DNA from: an uncultured Flavobacteriales bacterium
GTDB lineage: Bacteria; Bacteroidota; Bacteroidia; Flavobacteriales_D; Sanyastnellaceae
Length of the DNA: 52,740 nucleotides
NCBI GenBank assembly: GCA_905478325.1
Contig: CAJQIB010000031.1
Coordinates: 1-52,740 of the forward strand
Reading direction: 5' to 3'
Position 1 is the first letter of the stretch. Every line of letters begins with the position of its first letter. Shown here in pieces: positions 16,753 through 27,787 of this stretch. A program made the translations under genes and the position numbers. The notes below the pieces were generated by a model. That model made no database searches. It was given only the letters and a program-made list of their open reading frames with translations, and was not told the DNA's origin.

Positions 16753-16875
16753 GCATAAGGTGCCTCAAAAACAAAGAGATTTCATTGATTATGGACTCGC
16801 TTTGGATCACTTGGAAACGTGCCTCCAAGAACTATCTTTCGACCTCTTAAAACGCGTCCTAAAACGACTGATTGC

Positions 16876-17628
16876 ATGGCATTGATTGAAGAGTTGGAAC
16901 GATCTGGAAATTGGCTTTTTAAAGGCCGTTCATATTTCCCATTGGCATTGTATGGACTTATCGCTGTCGTCATTGGCATGGAATGGGACCCTCATTTTCG
17001 AGAATTTGATGTCACAAGCGCCAGCATTTGTTTGGGTGTTTCCATGTTCGGTTTGCTCATCCGTTCACTGACGATCGGCTTCACACCCCGTGGAACATCA
17101 GGTCGCAATACCAAGGACGGTCAGATCGCCGAAGTTTTGAACTCGAAAGGCATGTACAGCTTGGTACGGCACCCACTGTATCTCGGTAACTTTTTCATGT
17201 GGCTCGGGATCATGATCTATGTGGGAAACGTCTGGTTCACCATCGTCTGCTGTCTGCTCTACTGGCTTTACTACGAGCGCATCATGTTTGCGGAAGAAGC
17301 CTTTCTGCGTAAGCGATTTGGCGATGCTTATTTGGCATGGTCTGAGTACACTCCCGCATTTTGGCCACGCAATTTGAAATGGAAAGGTCCCGATGTCTCC
17401 TTCTCCTTGCGCAATGTGTTGAAACGCGAATACAATGGTTTCTTCGCGGTATTCGTGAGCCTCGCACTAGTTTCCGTAGGAAAGAACTTTGTCCACCACG
17501 ATGCAACGACAGTCGATAGCCTACTCGATCCCTTTTGGATGTGGAGCACCGCTGGAGCATTCGTGGTTTTTATCGTGCTGCGCAGTCTGAAGCGCTACTC
17601 ACGCGTCCTTCACGTCGAAGGGCGGTAA
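16876..17628 (+). CDS. Isoprenylcysteine/phospholipid methyltransferase-family membrane protein (lipid A phosphate methyltransferase-like)
   Basis: About 250 residues from the ATG at 16876; an in-frame GTG at 16819 would add 19 polar residues. There are five or so membrane segments. The core LVRHPLYLGNFFMWLG (about 96-111) followed by YYERIMFAEEAFLRKRFGDAY is the ICMT/PEMT methyltransferase signature: RHPxY plus a paired Glu that binds S-adenosylmethionine and substrate at the inner membrane. The length, the FGDAYxxWxxxTPAFWP ending of the core and a C-terminal membrane pair resemble LmtA-type lipid A 1-phosphate O-methyltransferases. The exact acceptor is inferred. A long inverted repeat overlaps the stop codon and faces the convergent CDGSH gene. 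Confidence 0.8.
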   Translation: MALIEELERSGNWLFKGRSYFPLALYGLIAVVIGMEWDPHFREFDVTSASICLGVSMFGLLIRSLTIGFTPRGTSGRNTKDGQIAEVLNSKGMYSLVRHPLYLGNFFMWLGIMIYVGNVWFTIVCCLLYWLYYERIMFAEEAFLRKRFGDAYLAWSEYTPAFWPRNLKWKGPDVSFSLRNVLKREYNGFFAVFVSLALVSVGKNFVHHDATTVDSLLDPFWMWSTAGAFVVFIVLRSLKRYSRVLHVEGR

Positions 17629-19200: not shown

Positions 19201-20151
19201 ATGAAAAGCTATCAACTCTTCCTACTCTGTCTGAGCGTTCTTGCTCCCCAGGTTGTGCAAGCCCAAAATGCCATTCAACTGAATTTGCAGCATGTGCTCA
19301 ATGGCGCTCCTTTGCAATTCCAGTCGTCTGTTGATGTTTTTGGCACGAATCTCGAATTCGATCGCCTCCAATACTATGTGTCTGATTTCGTCATCACCCA
19401 TGACGGTGGCCAAGAGACAGCCCTTTCCGACGTCTTTTTACTCGTGGATGCATCAGAAGGAGCTTCGATCCACCCATTGGGCGAATGGGACATCAATGCC
19501 GTCGAGGCCATGGCTTTCAGTATCGGCGTAGATGAAGCGTACAACCACCTCGACCCAACCCTGTATGAAGCGGGACATCCGTTGGCTCCTCAAAGCCCCA
19601 ACATGCACTGGGGATGGGCCAGCGGCTACAAATTCGCGGCATTGGAAGGGACTTCTGAAGGCAATAGCACCTTTGAAATCCATGCGCTTGGTGACGATAA
19701 CTTCTTCCAACAATCGCATGCCTTCAGCGAAGAAGCTGTTGATGGAACTGTCAACCTGTTCATGCGTGCCAATTGCGAAAGCCTGTTTATCCAAATCGAC
19801 GTTTCCGGCGGCCTGATTGAACATTCTACCGTAGATGAAGCGGCCACTTTACTGAATAACCTGCGCGACTTTGTTTTCGAGCCACTTCAAGGCTCCGTTG
19901 GAATCGAGCAAACCGGTGGTGCAACGTGCTCTTTGTTTCCCAACCCATCCGCTGGCCGTGTTCAGCTCAATTGGGGAGTGGAAGCCGTAGGGGCCACGTA
20001 TGCCCTTCTCGATGCAAGCGGCCGGATATGCCGGAGTGGAACCGTCACCCAAAGCACTGATGTCTGGAACACGAGCGAACTGCTTCCTGGCTTGTATCTG
20101 CTCGTTGGGCACGGGCCAGCAACATTTCAGCAAAGACTCATCATCCAGTAA
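19201..20151 (+). CDS. mbnP: MbnP-family copper-binding protein with T9SS type A sorting domain
   Basis: A 316-residue protein with a signal peptide (1-22, ending VQAQ). About residues 24-225 match the MbnP family: a beta-sandwich starting IQLNLQHVLNGAPL, LEFDRLQYYVSDF, FLLVDASEG and the conserved NMHWGWASGYKFAALEG (Trp137 and Trp139). In methanotroph MbnP a tryptophan is oxidised to kynurenine by the partner MbnH, creating a copper site. The MbnH-like gene starts 5 bp downstream. Unusually, a type A sorting domain (SLFPNPSAGRVQLN ... GLYLLVGHG) is fused at the C-terminus, which predicts transport across the outer membrane. Role inferred: surface copper capture or storage. Confidence 0.88.
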   Translation: MKSYQLFLLCLSVLAPQVVQAQNAIQLNLQHVLNGAPLQFQSSVDVFGTNLEFDRLQYYVSDFVITHDGGQETALSDVFLLVDASEGASIHPLGEWDINAVEAMAFSIGVDEAYNHLDPTLYEAGHPLAPQSPNMHWGWASGYKFAALEGTSEGNSTFEIHALGDDNFFQQSHAFSEEAVDGTVNLFMRANCESLFIQIDVSGGLIEHSTVDEAATLLNNLRDFVFEPLQGSVGIEQTGGATCSLFPNPSAGRVQLNWGVEAVGATYALLDASGRICRSGTVTQSTDVWNTSELLPGLYLLVGHGPATFQQRLIIQ

Positions 20152-20156
20152 GCCCC

Positions 20157-21173
20157 ATGCTCTGTGCCCGATTGCACCTTGTTTTTGTGTCATGCATCGT
20201 GCTCATCGGCTGCAAAAAACCTGCGGATTCAGAACCCTCTGTTGTTTGGAATGTTCCCGAGACTCCACAACACTTCGGAGCGCAATTCATCCCGAACGAC
20301 AATCCGTTGAGTGCTTTGAAATGGGAGTTGGGACGCCAGCTTTTTTTTGACCCGCAGCTTTCGAGCGACGGCTCGACCAGTTGCTCCTCCTGCCATCTTC
20401 CTTCTCATGCCTTTGGCGGATCCTCTCCCACCGCACCAGGAGTGGGCGGCGCATTGGGAACCCGTAACGTCCCTGTGTTGAGTAACATCGGATGGCATCC
20501 CTATTTCACCCGAGAAGGCGGTGTGCCGACACTTGAAATGCAAGTACTCGTCCCCATTCAAGAAACAAATGAACTCAATCACAACATCGTTCTGATTGCC
20601 GAACAATTGAACAGCGACTCCCTTTACATCAAGATGACTCAGGATGCTTTTGGTGTGGATCCCAGCCCGTATACCATCACCCGTGCTTTATCCGCATTTG
20701 AACGCACGTTGATTAGCGGAACTTCAGCTTACGACCGCTGGCTTGAAGGAGATGCATCCGCCCTGTCTCAGGCGGCCTTGCGCGGACAGGATGTTTTTGA
20801 ATCCATCGGATGTGGCCAATGCCATTCCGGGCCGCAATTTTCCGATTTCGAATTACGAAACAATGGCTTGTTTGTCGTTTACCCCGATTCAGGATTGTAT
20901 CGATTGACGCTAAACCCCGATGATATTGGGAAGTTCAAAACAGCGAGCCTGCGGAACCTTTCCTATTCTGCCCCCTACATGTTCGATGGTTCTGTTGCCA
21001 CGTTGGACGACGTCATCAACCAGTATGCGCAAGGTGGATCCAACCATTTCAATCAAGCCGCAGCCATTCAACCATTTGAAATCACCGCCGCCGAACGCAT
21101 GGATTTAAAGGCCTTCTTAGGTGCTTTGGACGATCCACAATTCGTAGCATGGGGTGAAACTTTGGCGCCTTAA
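20157..21173 (+). CDS. mbnH: MbnH-like diheme cytochrome c peroxidase-family lipoprotein
   Basis: A 338-residue protein with a lipoprotein signal (VSCIVLIGCKK, lipid on Cys19). Two c-type heme motifs are visible, C76-SS-C79-H80 and C219-GQ-C222-H223, as in bacterial diheme peroxidases and MauG/MbnH enzymes. The TREGGVPTLEMQVLVPI and PYMFDGSVATLDDVI segments are family landmarks. MbnH reaches a bis-Fe(IV) state with peroxide and oxidises a tryptophan in MbnP. The 5-bp gap after mbnP makes this pairing much more likely than general peroxide detoxification. It is anchored in the periplasm, so it would have to act on MbnP before T9SS export or at the outer membrane. Confidence 0.88.
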   Translation: MLCARLHLVFVSCIVLIGCKKPADSEPSVVWNVPETPQHFGAQFIPNDNPLSALKWELGRQLFFDPQLSSDGSTSCSSCHLPSHAFGGSSPTAPGVGGALGTRNVPVLSNIGWHPYFTREGGVPTLEMQVLVPIQETNELNHNIVLIAEQLNSDSLYIKMTQDAFGVDPSPYTITRALSAFERTLISGTSAYDRWLEGDASALSQAALRGQDVFESIGCGQCHSGPQFSDFELRNNGLFVVYPDSGLYRLTLNPDDIGKFKTASLRNLSYSAPYMFDGSVATLDDVINQYAQGGSNHFNQAAAIQPFEITAAERMDLKAFLGALDDPQFVAWGETLAP

Positions 21174-21186
21174 CCCTGTACGTGAG

Positions 21187-21876
21187 TTAGGTCAAGCGAT
21201 TGGAATTTTTCAATTCATGAGACATGGCTTCAACGGCTGCTTGCGTGGCATTCGTAATCTCATCCACACTTTCGTTTGAAAACACCAACGGCTTTCCTAC
21301 CAACAGGGTTCCACCAAACGGCACGATCATGCTGCGTCCCTTGGGTAAATTGCGGTACAAGCCATCCAAGTATATTGGAACGACTGGAATGCCCGGGTGA
21401 CGCGATGCCAAATGACCTACCCCGCGCTTAAAATCCCCCATTGAACCTGGAACTCCACGGGTTCCTTCTGGGAATAAGATGAGGCTGCGGCCCGCGACGA
21501 GCATGGCGTCGAGTTGTTCAATGGGATCCTCTCCATTCTCTTTTCGACTCCTCGAAATCAACACCGCATTGACCAAATGGAGCATGCCCCAACGCTTGAA
21601 ACCCGAACCAAAAAAATCCTGAGCGGCGACCGAATGGGTCAAATGGATCCGGGGACCAGGGACCACAGTCATAAGGGCCATTGCGTCGAGGTGACTGTTG
21701 TGATTGGCCACATAAATGACCGGACCATCCAAAGAAGCCGTGTCCTGCCTGATGTACTTGAGTCCAATGATCAGACCAAACACCATCCTCCAAAACACCT
21801 TGTAAAGCAGCACAAACAAGATGTGCTTCCCAAGAGATGGACGCTTTAGCCTTTTAGAGTGATTCAAATCCGACAT
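21187..21876 (-). CDS. PlsC-type 1-acylglycerol-3-phosphate acyltransferase
   Basis: A 229-residue protein of usual family length. Motif I is NHNSHLDAM (HX4D, about residues 57-65), the catalytic His/Asp pair; motif III is LFPEGTRGVPG (about 138-148), which binds glycerol phosphate. One N-terminal hydrophobic segment anchors it to the inner membrane. It transfers an acyl chain to lysophosphatidic acid or a similar lysolipid. It is the last gene of a minus-strand operon, 21 bp after the YnbB-like CDP-diacylglycerol synthase, so it may supply or remodel the acyl part of the lipid made there. It may be dedicated to this module rather than being the housekeeping PlsC. Confidence 0.92.
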   Translation of the reverse strand: MSDLNHSKRLKRPSLGKHILFVLLYKVFWRMVFGLIIGLKYIRQDTASLDGPVIYVANHNSHLDAMALMTVVPGPRIHLTHSVAAQDFFGSGFKRWGMLHLVNAVLISRSRKENGEDPIEQLDAMLVAGRSLILFPEGTRGVPGSMGDFKRGVGHLASRHPGIPVVPIYLDGLYRNLPKGRSMIVPFGGTLLVGKPLVFSNESVDEITNATQAAVEAMSHELKNSNRLT

Positions 21877-21897
21877 TGGTCAGTCAACAACAATCCA

Positions 21898-22854
21898 TTA
21901 ACTGGCACTACTGAAAAAGTAGATCAAATGAAAAAAGGGCGCTGCCGCTGCAGAAAAACCGTCCAAACGATCCAAGTATCCTCCGTGACCCGGGATGGCG
22001 TTGCCCGAATTCTTCACTCCAACGTCCCGCTTGATGCCCGACGCAATGGCGTCCCCCATAAATCCTGCGACCGCGACACAAAACCCCGTGAATGCCGCTT
22101 CCCAAATCCCCAATGGAGTCAGAAAGCGCAAGCCGATTGCCAGCAGCGTTGTGGATAGCACCCCTCCGATGAGTCCCTCCCAGGTTTTATTGGGACTGAC
22201 GCGTGGCAATACCGGGTGTTTTCCCAACGTTTTTCCCCACGCGAATTGCAGGACATCGTTCATTCCTACCAAGAAAATGAGGTACAAAAGCAACCCCTCA
22301 GGACCCGCGGTGAATCCTGGTATTTCCGGCATTTGGAACAGCAGTGCGAGGTGACTCATGCCATAGACCCACGCAACGAGTGAATAGGGCAGCAGCGAGA
22401 TGGAACGAACGAGCCCTTGTGTTTCACCCCGCGTCACCAAAACAAACGGGATGATCACAAACATGAAAACAGGAATGAAAGCGAGGAAAATTTCGGTTTT
22501 GCCATAGTATGCTAAAGCATATTGAACAGGAACCACTGCGTAGCAAAGCAAGACCACGTTGCGCTCTCTCAGGTCCAACTTCAAGAGTGGGTACATCTCA
22601 CGCAACAAGGCATAACTCAAGAATGCCAAACCAAGGTGGGTAATGAGCGGGTGTACGACGGTCGATAGAATGAAACAGACACACATGATCCACCACGACC
22701 GCGTTCGCACTTGCAGCTCTGTGGCCAATTTGGAAGGCTTTATTTTACCCAGGATATACCATGCTGTGGAACTAAAAACGAGGATGCACAGAATGATGAA
22801 AATCACCCATTGAACTTCAGCATTCATGCCCCACGCATCGATTAACTTGTTCAT
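21898..22854 (-). CDS. ynbB: Phosphatidate cytidylyltransferase, YnbB type (CdsA family)
   Basis: 318 residues from the ATG at 22854, which overlaps the upstream stop (ATGA). Upstream in-frame starts lie inside the preceding gene. The protein has about eight membrane segments. The CdsA signature is complete near the C-terminus: VSPNKTWEGLIGG, then SGIKRDVGVKNSGNAIPGHGGYLDRLDGF with the metal-binding Asp pair. It makes CDP-diacylglycerol from phosphatidic acid and CTP. The N-terminal LQVRTRSWWIM segment and the direct pairing with a YnbA-type transferase match, from memory of the family, the E. coli YnbB branch rather than housekeeping CdsA. Confidence 0.88.
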   Translation of the reverse strand: MNKLIDAWGMNAEVQWVIFIILCILVFSSTAWYILGKIKPSKLATELQVRTRSWWIMCVCFILSTVVHPLITHLGLAFLSYALLREMYPLLKLDLRERNVVLLCYAVVPVQYALAYYGKTEIFLAFIPVFMFVIIPFVLVTRGETQGLVRSISLLPYSLVAWVYGMSHLALLFQMPEIPGFTAGPEGLLLYLIFLVGMNDVLQFAWGKTLGKHPVLPRVSPNKTWEGLIGGVLSTTLLAIGLRFLTPLGIWEAAFTGFCVAVAGFMGDAIASGIKRDVGVKNSGNAIPGHGGYLDRLDGFSAAAAPFFHLIYFFSSAS

Positions 22855-23456
22855 GGTTTGACTGTTTTTTTGATCCGAATGGCCGTGCTCAAAATCAAGC
22901 ACAGAAAGACAACACAAAGCGCAATCGGCAACCACTCGCTGACATCGGCTTCAAAACCAAGGAACAAGCAGAGGACACCCCAAGCCAATGTGCGGTCACT
23001 TTTGCCCATGGGACCATCGTAGCGTCGCTCGCCATTGAGCCACCCGCCAAGAACTCCGGACAATTCGTTGACCGCAGACAGCCACAGCAAAACACCCACC
23101 CATCCTGCATGCATACCAGGCAGCAGCGCTAGAGGCCACATCACAAGGGCATCACTGACCACATCGCCCAATTCATTCAAAACTGCGCCGCCTTTGGTTG
23201 CCATGTCGTGAGATCGGGCCATTATGCCATCCAACGCATTCAAAATCATGCGCAACAGCAAAGACAACACGATGATACAATACCACACCGGTTGCTCCTC
23301 TCCCTGAACAAACATCCAACCCATCACACCAGACAGCACCAAGGCTGACCACGTCAATCCATTTGGCGTCACCCCTACCCTGCACAAGAAACCCACGATT
23401 GGATTCAGTAACCGCTGGAATGCCGGCTTGAGCGCATATGTACTCGGCATCTTCAT
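22851..23456 (-). CDS. ynbA: CDP-alcohol phosphatidyltransferase, YnbA type
   Basis: A 201-residue protein with about six membrane segments. The CDP-alcohol transferase motif is present in an altered form: N73-x2-D76-G77-x2-A80-R81-x8-G90-x3-N94-x3-D98, with Asn replacing the first and third of the usual four Asp residues. The same pattern (LNALDGxxAR ... LNExGDVxSD) and a later NGxRxYxGPxGKSDR segment are recalled from E. coli YnbA, so it looks like a family trait. It would join an alcohol head group to CDP-diacylglycerol; the alcohol is unknown. It is translationally coupled at both ends by ATGA overlaps (23453-23456 and 22851-22854). Confidence 0.88.
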   Translation of the reverse strand: MKMPSTYALKPAFQRLLNPIVGFLCRVGVTPNGLTWSALVLSGVMGWMFVQGEEQPVWYCIIVLSLLLRMILNALDGIMARSHDMATKGGAVLNELGDVVSDALVMWPLALLPGMHAGWVGVLLWLSAVNELSGVLGGWLNGERRYDGPMGKSDRTLAWGVLCLFLGFEADVSEWLPIALCVVFLCLILSTAIRIKKTVKP

Positions 23457-24271
23457 TCGGGAATGGGCTGATGTTTATCGAATGGATGATCCGTCAACCG
23501 TCCCCGCGATACGCCTTCGGGAAAAACACCGTGTGCAAAAAAGTGCAAGAATGGTGCGCCTAAGATGTCCCATCGTGTGTACATCATGTCATGATCCAAA
23601 GCCACATGAAATGCGTCTGAAGCGTTGCTGTCTATTTTTTTCCAATCGAACTCGAACGGACCCAACGCCTCCGCTTCATCTTGTAGCCAACGCATGAGGC
23701 CCGTTGCCCGGTTTTCAATGGCAAGTCCTGTGATAACAGACGGAGAAACGATGGGTGCAGGCCACACTGCTTCACTTAAGTCTTTCAATACTTTCCCTTT
23801 CATCCATGTACCCAAAACAGGAATTGCCGTCATCACAGCTTGGGGCGCCCGCTCTTGGATTGGACTTCGATCATAAATAACATATCTGAGGTTGGGAAGC
23901 GCGTGCGATTCGAGATACGTATGGAGTAAGAAAGCCCCTGCGATGTAACAAATTGATCGCACCTCTGCATACTCGGTAATGCCATATTCTGCTATGAATT
24001 CCTCCATTGCAACCGAGCTAGACTCAAGCGATGGTCGAAGCAAAACTTCTGGAATGAAGACGTCCATCCCCTGTTCCTTCCAAAATGCAAACTGGGCTTT
24101 GCAGGCGGATTTGCTCCCGCCAAAGCCATTCATGATGATCAAGGCCGTTTTTTGGCTCGGAGATCGTTCTGAGTCTTGATACACCCAATGATCTGCACAT
24201 ACGGGATTGAATGCCAGTATGAACGCAACCCCGAATATTCCATTCCATAAAAAGACCTTCACGGAGGACAA
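23453..24271 (-). CDS. Secreted alpha/beta-hydrolase-like protein of the YnbA/YnbB operon
   Basis: A 272-residue protein with a signal peptide (1-26, cleaved near VCA-DHW), so periplasmic. IIMNGFGGSKSACKAQFAFW (about 45-64) looks like the first strand and oxyanion loop of an alpha/beta hydrolase. The expected nucleophile elbow is not canonical: RSICYIAGAFLLHTYL (about 105-120) has no G-x-S-x-G, and none was found elsewhere. It may be inactive, use another residue, or belong to a different fold. It is the first gene of the operon and overlaps the YnbA-like gene by ATGA. E. coli ynbC, in the comparable operon, also encodes a hydrolase-like protein. Function unknown; lipid binding or head-group handling is a guess. 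Confidence 0.65.
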   Translation of the reverse strand: MSSVKVFLWNGIFGVAFILAFNPVCADHWVYQDSERSPSQKTALIIMNGFGGSKSACKAQFAFWKEQGMDVFIPEVLLRPSLESSSVAMEEFIAEYGITEYAEVRSICYIAGAFLLHTYLESHALPNLRYVIYDRSPIQERAPQAVMTAIPVLGTWMKGKVLKDLSEAVWPAPIVSPSVITGLAIENRATGLMRWLQDEAEALGPFEFDWKKIDSNASDAFHVALDHDMMYTRWDILGAPFLHFFAHGVFPEGVSRGRLTDHPFDKHQPIPE

Positions 24272-24428: not shown

Positions 24429-26108
24429 ATGCGAAACATCACAACACTCATACTATTCCTGGGAGTATTTCTGAGAATTGGAATGGCCCAAACACCCACG
24501 ATTGGACTCATTCAGAACACGCCTGAATCATTTGATGGGTACACACTCGTATCCGCAAACTCCGCTACGCAAAGTCATTTGATTGACAATTGTGGAAGGG
24601 TGATCAACCAATGGGAAAGTGATTACAGGATGGGAGAATCTTCTTACCTACTAGAGGATGGGTCGCTTTTGCGTACTGCGCGCGTCGCCGGATCGGTGTT
24701 TTTTGGAGGAGGCATCGGGGGAAGGCTGGAACGGTTTTCTTGGGATGGTGCGCTCGAATGGTCCTTTGATTATGCATCGGAGGAAGCCCACCACCATCAT
24801 GACATGGCGGTTTTGCCCAATGGCAACATTCTATTGATTGCGTGGGAATACCATTCCAATGAGGAGGCGCAGGCGCTCGGTCGCCTCGGGGACTCCCCTC
24901 TTTGGCCACCTCAGATTGTAGAGATTGAGCCCGTCGGCACGAATGGTGGCAACATTGTTTGGGAATGGCATGCCTGGGATCATCTCATTCAAAATGTTGA
25001 TCCAAATCTACCGAACTATGGAGAGCCCGCTGATTTCCCCCACCGTTTCGACATCAATTACGAAAGCCCTGGTGGTGGAGGACCGATGAGCCAAAACAGC
25101 GGTGATTGGTTCCATTGCAATGCCATTCATTACAATGCGACATGGGATCAAATCATGCTCAACAGCCGTCGCTGGAATGAGTTTTACGTCATTGACCACA
25201 GCACCACTTCAGACGAAGCTGCCAGCTCATCGGGAGGAGCCGCAGAACAAGGAGGCGACGTATTGTACCGCTGGGGAAATCCAGAGGCATATGGTCGAGG
25301 AGAGGTCGAGGATCGTCAACTGTTCGGTCAACATGACCCCCATTGGATTCATTATGAAGAAGGCGGAGGTAGCGAATCCACTTCATCTACCGTTCTGCTG
25401 TTCAACAACGGAGCGAGTCGTCCAGGCGGGCCGCGCAGTTCAGTGGATGAATTGACATTGCCCCTGCTAGATGACGGGACGTATTTGCTGCTGGAAGGAG
25501 AGGCCTTTGGCCCTTCTGACTTTGACTGGACGTACCCCGCCGTATTGGACCCCGATTTTTACAGTTCATTTATAAGCGGCGCACAGCGCTTACCCAATGG
25601 AAACACTCTTGTTTGCGAAGGAGACGATGGCAAACTATTCGAAGTGACTGCCACAGGGGAAAAGGTTTGGGAATACATCACCGCGACCAGCCAGTTCGGC
25701 CCCAACACGCAAGGCAATGAACCGTTAGAAAACGGTACATTCAGGGCCTACCGTTACGGACCCGACTACCCTGGTTTGGCAGGAAGAGACCTCACTCCCG
25801 GAGAGCCCGTAGAATTGTCCCCGTACCCGTCAGATTGCACAACCACGTCAGAGGGGACTCGCTTGCCGAATGACGCCGAGCTACCTGCGATTTCATTCGG
25901 TCCGATTCCCTTTTCAGACCATTTTAGCATTCAGGCAAACCGTCCAACTCACATTGCCTTGTTCGATGCGATGGGACGATCATTGCTGCGCGAAAACATC
26001 CACGAGACCATGACCTACACTTGGGGATATCTTCCTGCGGGGAGTTATATTCTTCGGTGGGAAGATGCCATTGGAAACGTTGGGAGTACCGTAATTTTGA
26101 AATTATAA
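24429..26108 (+). CDS. Arylsulfotransferase-like beta-propeller protein with T9SS type A sorting domain (copy 1)
   Basis: A 559-residue protein with a signal peptide (1-20, cleaved near GMAQ). About residues 20-460 fit the arylsulfotransferase (ASST) family: repeated blades such as DGYTLVSANSATQSHLI, CGRVINQWESD, EAHHHHDMAVLPNGNILLIAWE, IVWEWHAWDHLIQ, QHDPHWI and AQRLPNGNTLVCEGDDGKLFEV. Family members transfer sulfate between phenolic compounds through a catalytic His; the HHD and QHDxHW histidines are candidates. The tail (FGPIPFSDHFSIQ ... AGSYILRW) is a type A sorting domain. The second copy starts 2 bp after this stop, so the two are co-expressed. Whether they act on sulfated aromatics is inference. 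Confidence 0.85.
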   Translation: MRNITTLILFLGVFLRIGMAQTPTIGLIQNTPESFDGYTLVSANSATQSHLIDNCGRVINQWESDYRMGESSYLLEDGSLLRTARVAGSVFFGGGIGGRLERFSWDGALEWSFDYASEEAHHHHDMAVLPNGNILLIAWEYHSNEEAQALGRLGDSPLWPPQIVEIEPVGTNGGNIVWEWHAWDHLIQNVDPNLPNYGEPADFPHRFDINYESPGGGGPMSQNSGDWFHCNAIHYNATWDQIMLNSRRWNEFYVIDHSTTSDEAASSSGGAAEQGGDVLYRWGNPEAYGRGEVEDRQLFGQHDPHWIHYEEGGGSESTSSTVLLFNNGASRPGGPRSSVDELTLPLLDDGTYLLLEGEAFGPSDFDWTYPAVLDPDFYSSFISGAQRLPNGNTLVCEGDDGKLFEVTATGEKVWEYITATSQFGPNTQGNEPLENGTFRAYRYGPDYPGLAGRDLTPGEPVELSPYPSDCTTTSEGTRLPNDAELPAISFGPIPFSDHFSIQANRPTHIALFDAMGRSLLRENIHETMTYTWGYLPAGSYILRWEDAIGNVGSTVILKL

Positions 26109-26110
26109 TC

Positions 26111-27787
26111 ATGCGATACCAAACCACCATGCGTCCTGCTTTTCTAATCTTATCTATGTGTCTCGTATTGGTCAAGATGTACGGTCAAAACACCGTTGGC
26201 ACCATTGCCTATAATCCCGACCTGTTCACGGATGGATACACGCTTATTTATCCGCACAACCAGCACAGGGCCATGTTACTCAATGGGTGCGGTGAAGTCG
26301 TTCATCAATGGGAAATGGACTCCCTCAGACGGCCAGGAAACACTTGTTACCTCCAGCCCGACGGGGACATTATCATCACTTCTCGCCCTGCATCCGCAGG
26401 TAACGCTACCATTTGGGCTGGCGGAGCCGGTGAGACCATCGAGCGCCGCACGTGGGACAATGACGTGATCTGGAGCTACACGACGGAAAGTGATTCGCTG
26501 CGTCTCCATCACGATATGACCGTAACACCAAACGGCCATGTCATCGCGATCTGCTGGGAAGCCATCGATAGCTTAGAATGCATTGAAAACGGTCGGAATC
26601 CGGCATTGCTGGAGGCGGGCGTGCTGTGGAGTGACAAACTCATTGAGTTGCAACCCAACGGAAATGGGGGTGCCGATGTTGTTTGGGAATGGCGCGCTTG
26701 GGATCATTTGGTCCAGGATTTTGACAGCACAAAATTGAACTTTGGCGTTGTCGCTGACCATCAAAACAAAATCGACGTCAACTTTGGATCCGTTAGTAGT
26801 CAACCTGCCGATTGGCTCCACATGAACTCCATCGACTACTATCCATTTTATGATAGCGCCGGACAAATTGTAGTGAGCATTCCCACCTTCAATGAAGTGT
26901 GGACCATCTGGCACGACTGGTCGTTTAGCGACGATTTGATCTGGCGTTGGGGCAATCCCATTGCCTACGACCGTGGAGACAGCAGCGATCAACAACTCTT
27001 TTACCAACATGACATCCATTGGGGAAATGGTCCGTCTGTGCAACCGGGGAACCCCGATTTCGTCAAGTTCTTTGTCTTCAACAACCGCGTGCCCGATAGC
27101 CTCGGAACCCACAGTGAGGCGGCCATTATCAACCCCATATTTGACGAATACGAAGGAGGGTACGAATTTGACGAAACGACCGGCCGTTGGGGACCTGAAA
27201 CATTTGAATGGACCTACACACAGCCCGGATTGAGCAGCAGTGGATTGAGTTCCTTTCAGCGTTTGGGCAATGGAAATAACCTGATTTGTAGCGGTCGTAC
27301 CGGAGAGATTTTTGAGCTGACCGAAGACGCGGAGTTGGCTTGGCAATACCGTACGCCTCTATTGGGCGGCGCTCCTGTAGAGCAAGGTGTCGAATTGAGT
27401 ATGAACCAGAATCTCACCTTCCGAGCGGAACGCTATCCTGCCAATTTCGCTGCTTTCGAAGACCACGATTTGTCCTCCGGTACGGTCATTGAAGTCAATC
27501 CTGTCCCGCTCGAAATCTGCGTTCCCAATGTAGGACTCGGAAAGGAGGTGGCCTTGGAGTTTTCACTCCACCCAAACCCTACCAATGGTCCGGTGATTTT
27601 GCAGTTAGAGCAATGGGAAGGTGTCGATGTACGCTTGTTTGACTTCAGCGGGCGCCAAGTTTTTGCTCGTCAAATTTTAGGCCAATACACCCCGTTTGAC
27701 CTTTCCAATTTAGCCAAGGGCACTTACTTTCTGAAGGTTCAATCCGCGCAAGGGCAAGGAGTTCAACGCATTGTCGTATTGCGATAG
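26111..27787 (+). CDS. Arylsulfotransferase-like beta-propeller protein with T9SS type A sorting domain (copy 2)
   Basis: 558 residues from the ATG at 26111; an ATG at 26129 is an alternative, and upstream codons lie within copy 1. It has a signal peptide (ending KMYGQ) and the same blade order as copy 1: DGYTLIYPHNQHRAMLL, CGEVVHQWEMD, LHHDMTVTPNGHVIAICWE, VVWEWRAWDHLVQ, QHDIHWGNG and FQRLGNGNNLICSGRTGEIFEL. It ends with a type A sorting domain (LHPNPTNGPVILQL ... KGTYFLKVQ). The two proteins are clearly paralogous but well diverged, an old tandem duplication rather than a recent one. Different substrates are possible. Confidence 0.85.
   Translation: MRYQTTMRPAFLILSMCLVLVKMYGQNTVGTIAYNPDLFTDGYTLIYPHNQHRAMLLNGCGEVVHQWEMDSLRRPGNTCYLQPDGDIIITSRPASAGNATIWAGGAGETIERRTWDNDVIWSYTTESDSLRLHHDMTVTPNGHVIAICWEAIDSLECIENGRNPALLEAGVLWSDKLIELQPNGNGGADVVWEWRAWDHLVQDFDSTKLNFGVVADHQNKIDVNFGSVSSQPADWLHMNSIDYYPFYDSAGQIVVSIPTFNEVWTIWHDWSFSDDLIWRWGNPIAYDRGDSSDQQLFYQHDIHWGNGPSVQPGNPDFVKFFVFNNRVPDSLGTHSEAAIINPIFDEYEGGYEFDETTGRWGPETFEWTYTQPGLSSSGLSSFQRLGNGNNLICSGRTGEIFELTEDAELAWQYRTPLLGGAPVEQGVELSMNQNLTFRAERYPANFAAFEDHDLSSGTVIEVNPVPLEICVPNVGLGKEVALEFSLHPNPTNGPVILQLEQWEGVDVRLFDFSGRQVFARQILGQYTPFDLSNLAKGTYFLKVQSAQGQGVQRIVVLR

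Follow-up and report, generated by a model that had tools for sequence, protein, structure and literature searches.

The window, as the whole stretch of DNA analyzed here is called (52,740 nucleotides, contig CAJQIB010000031.1 of an uncultured Flavobacteriales bacterium of the family Sanyastnellaceae), carries at 21187-24271 four coupled minus-strand open reading frames (ORFs) in the order HYD-YnbA-YnbB-PlsC: an α/β-hydrolase-fold protein, referred to as HYD, homologs of the E. coli proteins YnbA and YnbB, and an acyltransferase (Table 1). The stop codon of HYD overlaps the start codon of YnbA in an ATGA, as does the stop codon of YnbA with the start codon of YnbB directly downstream, and a 21 bp gap separates the YnbB stop from the PlsC start; ORFs and junctions are those given in the initial annotation of this DNA. 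The class I CDP-alcohol phosphotransferase domain of YnbA (Pfam CDP-OH_P_transf, 36.5 bits, cutoff 22), the CTP_transf_1 domain of YnbB (177 bits, cutoff 24) and the Acyltransferase domain of PlsC (cutoff 23) all score above their cutoffs. The overlapping ATG at 22854 is a more likely start for YnbB than the GTG at 22935 of the mechanically called ORF, and HYD may start at the GTG at 24262 rather than the TTG at 24271, to judge by its signal peptide. Scans of the operon for promoters and terminators turned up no more than did shuffled controls.

Table 1. Genes of the operon and individual residues discussed in the text (window coordinates)
Feature	Coordinates	Strand	Remarks
HYD	23453..24271	(-)	α/β-hydrolase-fold protein, probably exported; AF2 pLDDT (predicted local distance difference test) 93.4; best PDB Z 14.5; 28-member alignment
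YnbA	22851..23456	(-)	CDP-alcohol phosphotransferase homolog, YnbA clade, 201 aa
YnbB	21898..22854	(-)	CDP-diacylglycerol synthase paralog; set apart from CdsA in tree
PlsC-type acyltransferase	21187..21876	(-)	NHNSHLD and FPEGTR motifs; Pfam 77.6 bits
YnbA Asn73 (canonical D1)	23238..23240	(-)	N in 32/32 YnbA, D in 14/14 references
YnbA Asn94 (canonical D3)	23175..23177	(-)	N in 32/32 YnbA, D in 14/14 references
YnbA Arg155 in GKSDR	22992..22994	(-)	aligns with R155 of phosphatidylinositol phosphate (PIP) synthase; GKSDR in 80/80 loci
YnbA Arg194	22875..22877	(-)	aligns with PIP synthase R195
HYD Tyr109	23945..23947	(-)	sole residue linking strand 103-108 to helix 110-122, the nucleophile place in hydrolases (DSSP of model)
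YnbB Asn for first Asp of signature (KN for KD)	22009..22011	(-)	KN only in close relatives among rows read

Conservation of the operon

YnbA is found in 19 of the 101 genomes of the window's family, so that the operon is not there by chance. HYD is found in the very same 19 (in G077 as a fragment of 44 residues where the contig stops); were the two genes independent, an overlap this complete would have a probability of 6e-21, a value to be read in the knowledge that related genomes are not independent. The four-gene order, whose conservation the initial annotation had proposed checking by genome context, recurs at 14 of the 18 loci from the other 18 family genomes, counting L040, in which PlsC is cut by a contig end; L034, L035, L039 and L049 run into contig ends, and about 500 bp lie between HYD and YnbA at L048 (G003). 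Of 395 genomes sampled from the phylum, 7 have YnbA; 3 of those 7, and no others, have HYD.

The genome contigs of 84,980 species hold at least 473 relatives of YnbA, of which the best 80 by similarity to the window were kept, many of them in metagenome-assembled genomes; 79 are placed in 13 NCBI phyla (including Balneolota and two candidate phyla), and 45 of the 80 are from Bacteroidota. L058 to L061 repeat the contigs of L033, L036, L037 and L041, each being counted once within the 80. YnbB adjoins YnbA in 73 of the 80 loci, a minimum count, since some contigs stop at this point. PlsC is no special feature of the window operon, being found no more than 5 kb away in 57 loci and directly after YnbB in 50. 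HYD is present in 24 loci, every one also with PlsC, a YnbC-like protein in 19 (the methyltransferase part only in L133 and L134) and a YnbD-like protein in 15; HYD and a YnbC-like protein were found together in none of the 80. A second form of the operon, YnbA-YnbB-patatin-SDR-YnbD-YnbC, is represented by 15 loci, some with one or two genes missing, its patatin and SDR genes having been scanned in one representative each.

Two further arrangements accompany the YnbA-YnbB-PlsC triad. In Pseudanabaena L133 (2932-3840) and L134 (10242-11231) the fourth gene, after PlsC, encodes a free-standing Methyltransf_20 protein, which matches E. coli YnbC in its C-terminal half; the protein of L133 was scanned, and that of L134 is 89% identical to it. 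Small membrane proteins that fall in a single cluster are encoded beside the triad in L073, L097, L109 and L125, and also in L091; that of L097 scores 32.1 bits for VTT/DedA, just below the cutoff of 33.9, and is a possible lipid flippase.

YnbA and its altered metal site

YnbA of the window is equal in length to E. coli YnbA and 41% identical to it over 157 aa. A 44-row tree of CDP-alcohol phosphotransferases assembles the window protein, E. coli YnbA and 28 others in a 30-row YnbA clade with a support of 98 in the Shimodaira-Hasegawa-like approximate likelihood ratio test (SH-aLRT), separate from PgsA and PssA and with the PIP synthases nearest (SH-aLRT 87); this is a quick tree with no bootstrap, for which the tool issued a long-branch warning. 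YnbB likewise groups with its E. coli namesake, apart from CdsA, at SH-aLRT 98 (the tree has only two CdsA rows, both long). The YnbA/YnbB type assigned by the initial annotation, which had suggested a phylogeny of the transferase as a check, accordingly stands for both proteins. The best NCBIfam matches of YnbA, archaetidylinositol phosphate synthase (63.9 bits) and PIP synthase (PIPSynth, 42.8 bits against a cutoff of 170), are both far below their cutoffs, as are TIGR00560 for PgsA (14.5 bits; cutoff 109.1) and NF052561 (28.2 bits; cutoff 350). The predicted model of YnbA (pLDDT 87.5) has a PIP synthase as its nearest solved fold, with a Z of 18.3 and a root-mean-square deviation (rmsd) of 2.9 over 189 residues.

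The eight-residue signature of these enzymes, D1xxD2GxxAR...GxxxD3xxxD4, is broken in YnbA at D1 and at D3, both of which are Asn in every one of the 32 YnbA aligned with 14 references (4 of the PIP synthase type and 10 others). The 32 span 12 phyla by their NCBI titles and do not include E. coli YnbA, which also has Asn at both positions. Because of these two residues YnbA is treated here as a noncanonical homolog whose site is altered. In the PIP synthase of Mycobacterium tuberculosis, D68, D71 and D89 bind Mg-1 and D89 binds Mg-2 (PMC6506517), and it is at the positions equivalent to D68 and D89 that YnbA has its Asn. The N..D...N...D motif extends to 79 of the 80 loci, the 80th having both Asn and LS instead of AR. 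The patterns of the 80-locus scan contained LNALDG and Y[DE]GPMGKS, so that N73 and GKS are partly selected in this set; N94, R155 and R194 lie outside the patterns. Among the family matches, for which the window protein was the query, N94 is present in all 18 rows that extend to it, and N73 in all of these but L049, which starts after that position.

The acceptor side of the site is that of the PIP synthases in one respect and departs from it in another. The phosphate group of inositol phosphate is bound by R155 and R195 in the M. tuberculosis enzyme (PMC4634129); the equivalent pair, Arg155 and Arg194, is present in all 32 YnbA and all 4 PIP synthase-type references, and in none of the 10 others (one of which is gapped there). 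R94, reported to be conserved among users of inositol phosphate and to be crucial (PMC6506517), is Arg in the 4 PIP synthase-type references and Val or Ile in all 32 YnbA. D2, D4, the Arg pair and four residues confined to YnbA (R144, K152, S153 and D154) are invariant among the 32. We have seen no earlier description of the Asn/Asn site or of the PIP synthase-type Arg pair of YnbA in the open-access literature searched, which covers part of the field.

YnbB, PlsC and HYD

YnbB is 35% identical to E. coli YnbB over 276 aa, and the latter makes CDP-diacylglycerol in vitro and does not replace CdsA (PMC7018664, PMC6362211). In the window YnbB the CDP-diacylglycerol synthase signature, KDX5PGHGGX2DRXD, reads KN in place of KD and is otherwise intact. 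KN recurs in 18 rows besides the window (4 of them duplicate contigs), which belong to the window's genus, to genus g3 (L040, L041) and to L057; the remaining 77 rows have Asp, by motif in 63 (one being the genome's own CdsA) and by eye in 11, or are unreadable there (3). In our own numbering of 4Q2G, with an offset of 20, the KN site would lie outside the two metal-binding Asp, both of which are kept. PlsC has both the NHX4D and the FPEGTR motif, and scores 62.3 bits for TIGR00530, below the cutoff of 102.95.

HYD is without any family assignment, its novelty being relative to the family libraries: it matches nothing in Pfam, NCBIfam or PHROG up to E 1, and of 28 HYD scanned singly two touch Hydrolase_4 (best E 0.0009) and one touches Abhydrolase_1 (E 0.03). 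A sequence search of solved structures gave a best E of 0.046. The predicted model has an α/β-hydrolase fold, the best of many tied structure matches having an rmsd of 3.0 over 201 residues at 10% identity. The "hydrolase-like" label of the initial annotation is borne out by this predicted fold and not by the nucleophile: Ser, Cys or Asp is absent from the elbow in the 28-member alignment, residue 109 being Tyr in 27 and Phe in one, followed by Ile110 in all 28. Glu186 at the acid position and His227 at the histidine position are present in 28 of 28, and G49, G51, Y133, R135, S136, Q139, E140, D228 and Y231 are invariant; the DSSP line of the model puts the invariant residues at strand ends lining the pocket of the fold. 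The pocket seems, on this model, to be conserved and the usual nucleophile to be missing, which would favor binding or unusual chemistry over a standard esterase. HYD is probably exported, because all 28 members have an N-terminal hydrophobic stretch by a simple hydropathy window.

HYD was also considered as a form of YnbC and rejected, there being no profile similarity between the two (probability 1%). A HYD copy with one in-frame TAG occurs at L144 (G416:C8); a split pgsA-like match lies on the same contig.

A proposed pathway and its rivals

The reading that we favor, tentatively and at a little less than even chances, is that the operon specifies an accessory phospholipid module in which PlsC, YnbB and YnbA would lead to a phosphatidyl-X-phosphate, with X probably not inositol, and HYD would handle the lipid in the periplasm. 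PlsC would convert lysophosphatidate to phosphatidate, YnbB would convert phosphatidate to CDP-diacylglycerol, and YnbA would transfer the phosphatidyl group to an acceptor, phosphatidyl-X-phosphate being the first product. The acceptor would most likely be a phosphorylated alcohol, because YnbA resembles the PIP synthases and keeps both phosphate-binding Arg; it would probably not be inositol phosphate, because R94 is missing and inositol-phosphate synthase (PF01658) was found in none of 20 HYD-type genomes (as against 2 of 4 others; 9 of these 24 genomes are less than 90% complete, and G095 was outside the set). An inositol lipid, entertained as the likeliest head group, was set aside for the same two reasons; uptake of inositol phosphate may be an alternative source. 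In operons of the ynbABCD type the phosphate would be stripped by the phosphatase-domain protein YnbD. E. coli YnbD is annotated as such a protein, and the one YnbD that was scanned, that of L085, scores above cutoff for PAP2_3 and PAP2 and at 25.2 bits for DSPc, below the cutoff of 33.5. As the dephosphorylating step of the second operon form, YnbD would fit by analogy with the PIP pathway of Bacteroides (PMC9246714). In the window operon, dephosphorylation would be left to another enzyme or omitted, and HYD would bind or handle the completed lipid in the periplasm, probably without hydrolyzing an ester.

A number of observations weigh against such a module. The operon of the window has no phosphatase gene and no YnbD. 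The two Asp-to-Asn changes at the metal site of YnbA may have cost the protein its catalytic activity; in PIP synthase, changing D4 to N nearly abolishes activity (PMC4634129), a literature search and passages of three papers yielded nothing on the effect of Asn at D1 or D3, and we came upon no YnbA activity in the open papers searched. The fold of YnbA is by itself indecisive, because a cholinephosphotransferase (8ero, Z 17.3) and AF2299 (Z 17.1) score close to PIP synthase, and the sister relation to the PIP synthases has a support of only 87, with long branches. The positions of S132 and K135, which line the acceptor site of PIP synthase, have Ser in 3 and Lys in none of the 32 YnbA; this says little, because the 4 PIP synthase-type references in the alignment also lack both residues, and the stretch may be misaligned. 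The first Asp of the YnbB signature is, as noted, Asn. The PlsC tree has long branches and does not gather the PlsC of the triads in one clean group, and no claim is made for a distinct clade of them. Finally, the nucleophile of HYD may have shifted to the neighboring residue 108, where the 28 members have Cys (13), Ser (11) or Ala (4); this possibility has lowered our confidence in the favored reading.

A phosphate-binding acceptor site in YnbA is compatible with a sugar phosphate as well, and a different, unlikely account would accommodate that: YnbB, with or without YnbA, would join CDP-diacylglycerol to a sugar phosphate and so provide a glycolipid anchor like GlcNAc-PP-DAG, the precursor of E. 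coli MPIase. Overproduction of YnbB raises the level of MPIase, and restores MPIase but not bulk phospholipid, and a review interprets the broad distribution of YnbB as pointing to a backup role for MPIase (PMC6362211, PMC7018664); knockout of ynbB, however, does not significantly change MPIase (PMC6362211). The 7 genomes with YnbA in the phylum sample also make for a distribution too patchy for an essential factor, although a backup may be patchy. MPIase itself is not known to occur beyond E. coli and its relatives.

Less likely again is that YnbA is catalytically dead or regulatory, the operon only tuning how much phosphatidate and CDP-diacylglycerol is supplied or which acyl chains they carry. 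The Asn residues found at D1 and D3 throughout the 32 YnbA fit this proposal, as do a HYD without the usual nucleophile and the KN of YnbB; yet the invariance of D2, D4, the Arg pair, R144, K152, S153 and D154 across 12 phyla is what would be expected of a working active site.

The initial annotation had also held that the operon would be ordinary phospholipid synthesis if its two central enzymes grouped with housekeeping PgsA or PssA and CdsA and the genome had no other copies. That is not what is found, because YnbA and YnbB group apart from these enzymes and the source genome (2.4 Mb, 98.9% complete) holds separate genes: one further CDP-OH_P_transf gene, which is PssA-like (69 bits for TIGR00473, below the cutoff of 107), one further CTP_transf_1 gene, which is CdsA-like, and four Acyltransferase genes besides the PlsC of the operon. 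Since no pgsA was matched in this genome at E 0.001, and its sole other CDP-OH_P_transf gene is PssA-like, YnbA might stand in for PgsA and make phosphatidylglycerol phosphate, but this is the least probable of the alternatives: YnbA is apart from PgsA in the tree, the genus mate G039 (99% complete) has neither YnbA nor pgsA, and G153, G176, G199, G242 and E. coli have both.

The accessory phospholipid module, if it is that, invites a broader proposal, which is possible and more speculative than the pathway itself: YnbA would be a distinct class of transferase, with an Asn-substituted metal site and an acceptor that is phosphorylated and not inositol, that makes an undescribed class of phospholipid in at least a dozen phyla and in E. 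coli among other bacteria, and the HYD of Bacteroidota would be an exported former hydrolase turned dedicated binder, carrier or sensor of this lipid. The "unknown head group" of the initial annotation becomes a checkable prediction, a phosphorylated non-inositol acceptor together with an unusual metal site, and HYD adds a family of putatively exported α/β-hydrolase-fold proteins tied to one lipid pathway. Should the proposal hold, many phyla contain a membrane lipid that has so far escaped notice, perhaps owing to poor extraction of phosphorylated lipids under non-acidic conditions, as has been suggested for the PIP-DAG of Bacteroides (PMC9246714).

Neighboring genes in the window

The operon is adjoined on the other strand, at 19201-21173, by genes for an MbnP protein (with a weak match to a type IX secretion system (T9SS) tail) and then a di-haem CCP_MauG cytochrome c peroxidase. 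A PEMT-type methyltransferase is encoded on the opposite strand at 16819-17628, 3.5 kb from the operon. Two genes for proteins of the arylsulfotransferase family lie in tandem at 24429-27787, divergent from the operon; the second protein has a T9SS sorting tail.

Relation to known systems

The operon of the window is a variant of a known and uncharacterized operon, ynb. The initial annotation gave ynb no settled product, and the open papers searched likewise yielded none; ynbA is listed in a table of one cyclic di-GMP screen. E. coli ynbABCD has the same ynbA-ynbB order and also encodes an α/β-hydrolase-type protein, YnbC, whereas it has neither PlsC nor HYD and the window has no YnbD. HYD differs from YnbC, a fusion with a methyltransferase in whose hydrolase part Ser115, Asp230 and His260, presumably a catalytic triad, are present in 10 of 10 sequences. 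YnbB aligns with the CdsA of Thermotoga maritima (4Q2E/4Q2G) over about 240 residues (E 5e-18), while the CdsA of E. coli and that of the source genome fall in a separate group and the first signature Asp is replaced in the window YnbB. The bacterial PIP synthases of Renibacterium salmoninarum (5D92) and M. tuberculosis (6H53) are the best solved-structure matches of the YnbA model and share its Arg pair; YnbA differs in its Asn at D1 and D3 and in lacking R94, and no inositol-phosphate synthase was found in its genome. A parallel in Bacteroidota is the inositol-lipid cluster BT_1522-1526 of Bacteroides (the system to which the NF052561 comparison above relates), in which a CDP-alcohol phosphotransferase acts on a phosphorylated acceptor (PMC9246714), as YnbA probably does; the Bacteroides system, however, has the canonical DX2DGX2AR...GX3DX3D signature, its own MIPS and a PgpA-type phosphatase (PMC9246714).

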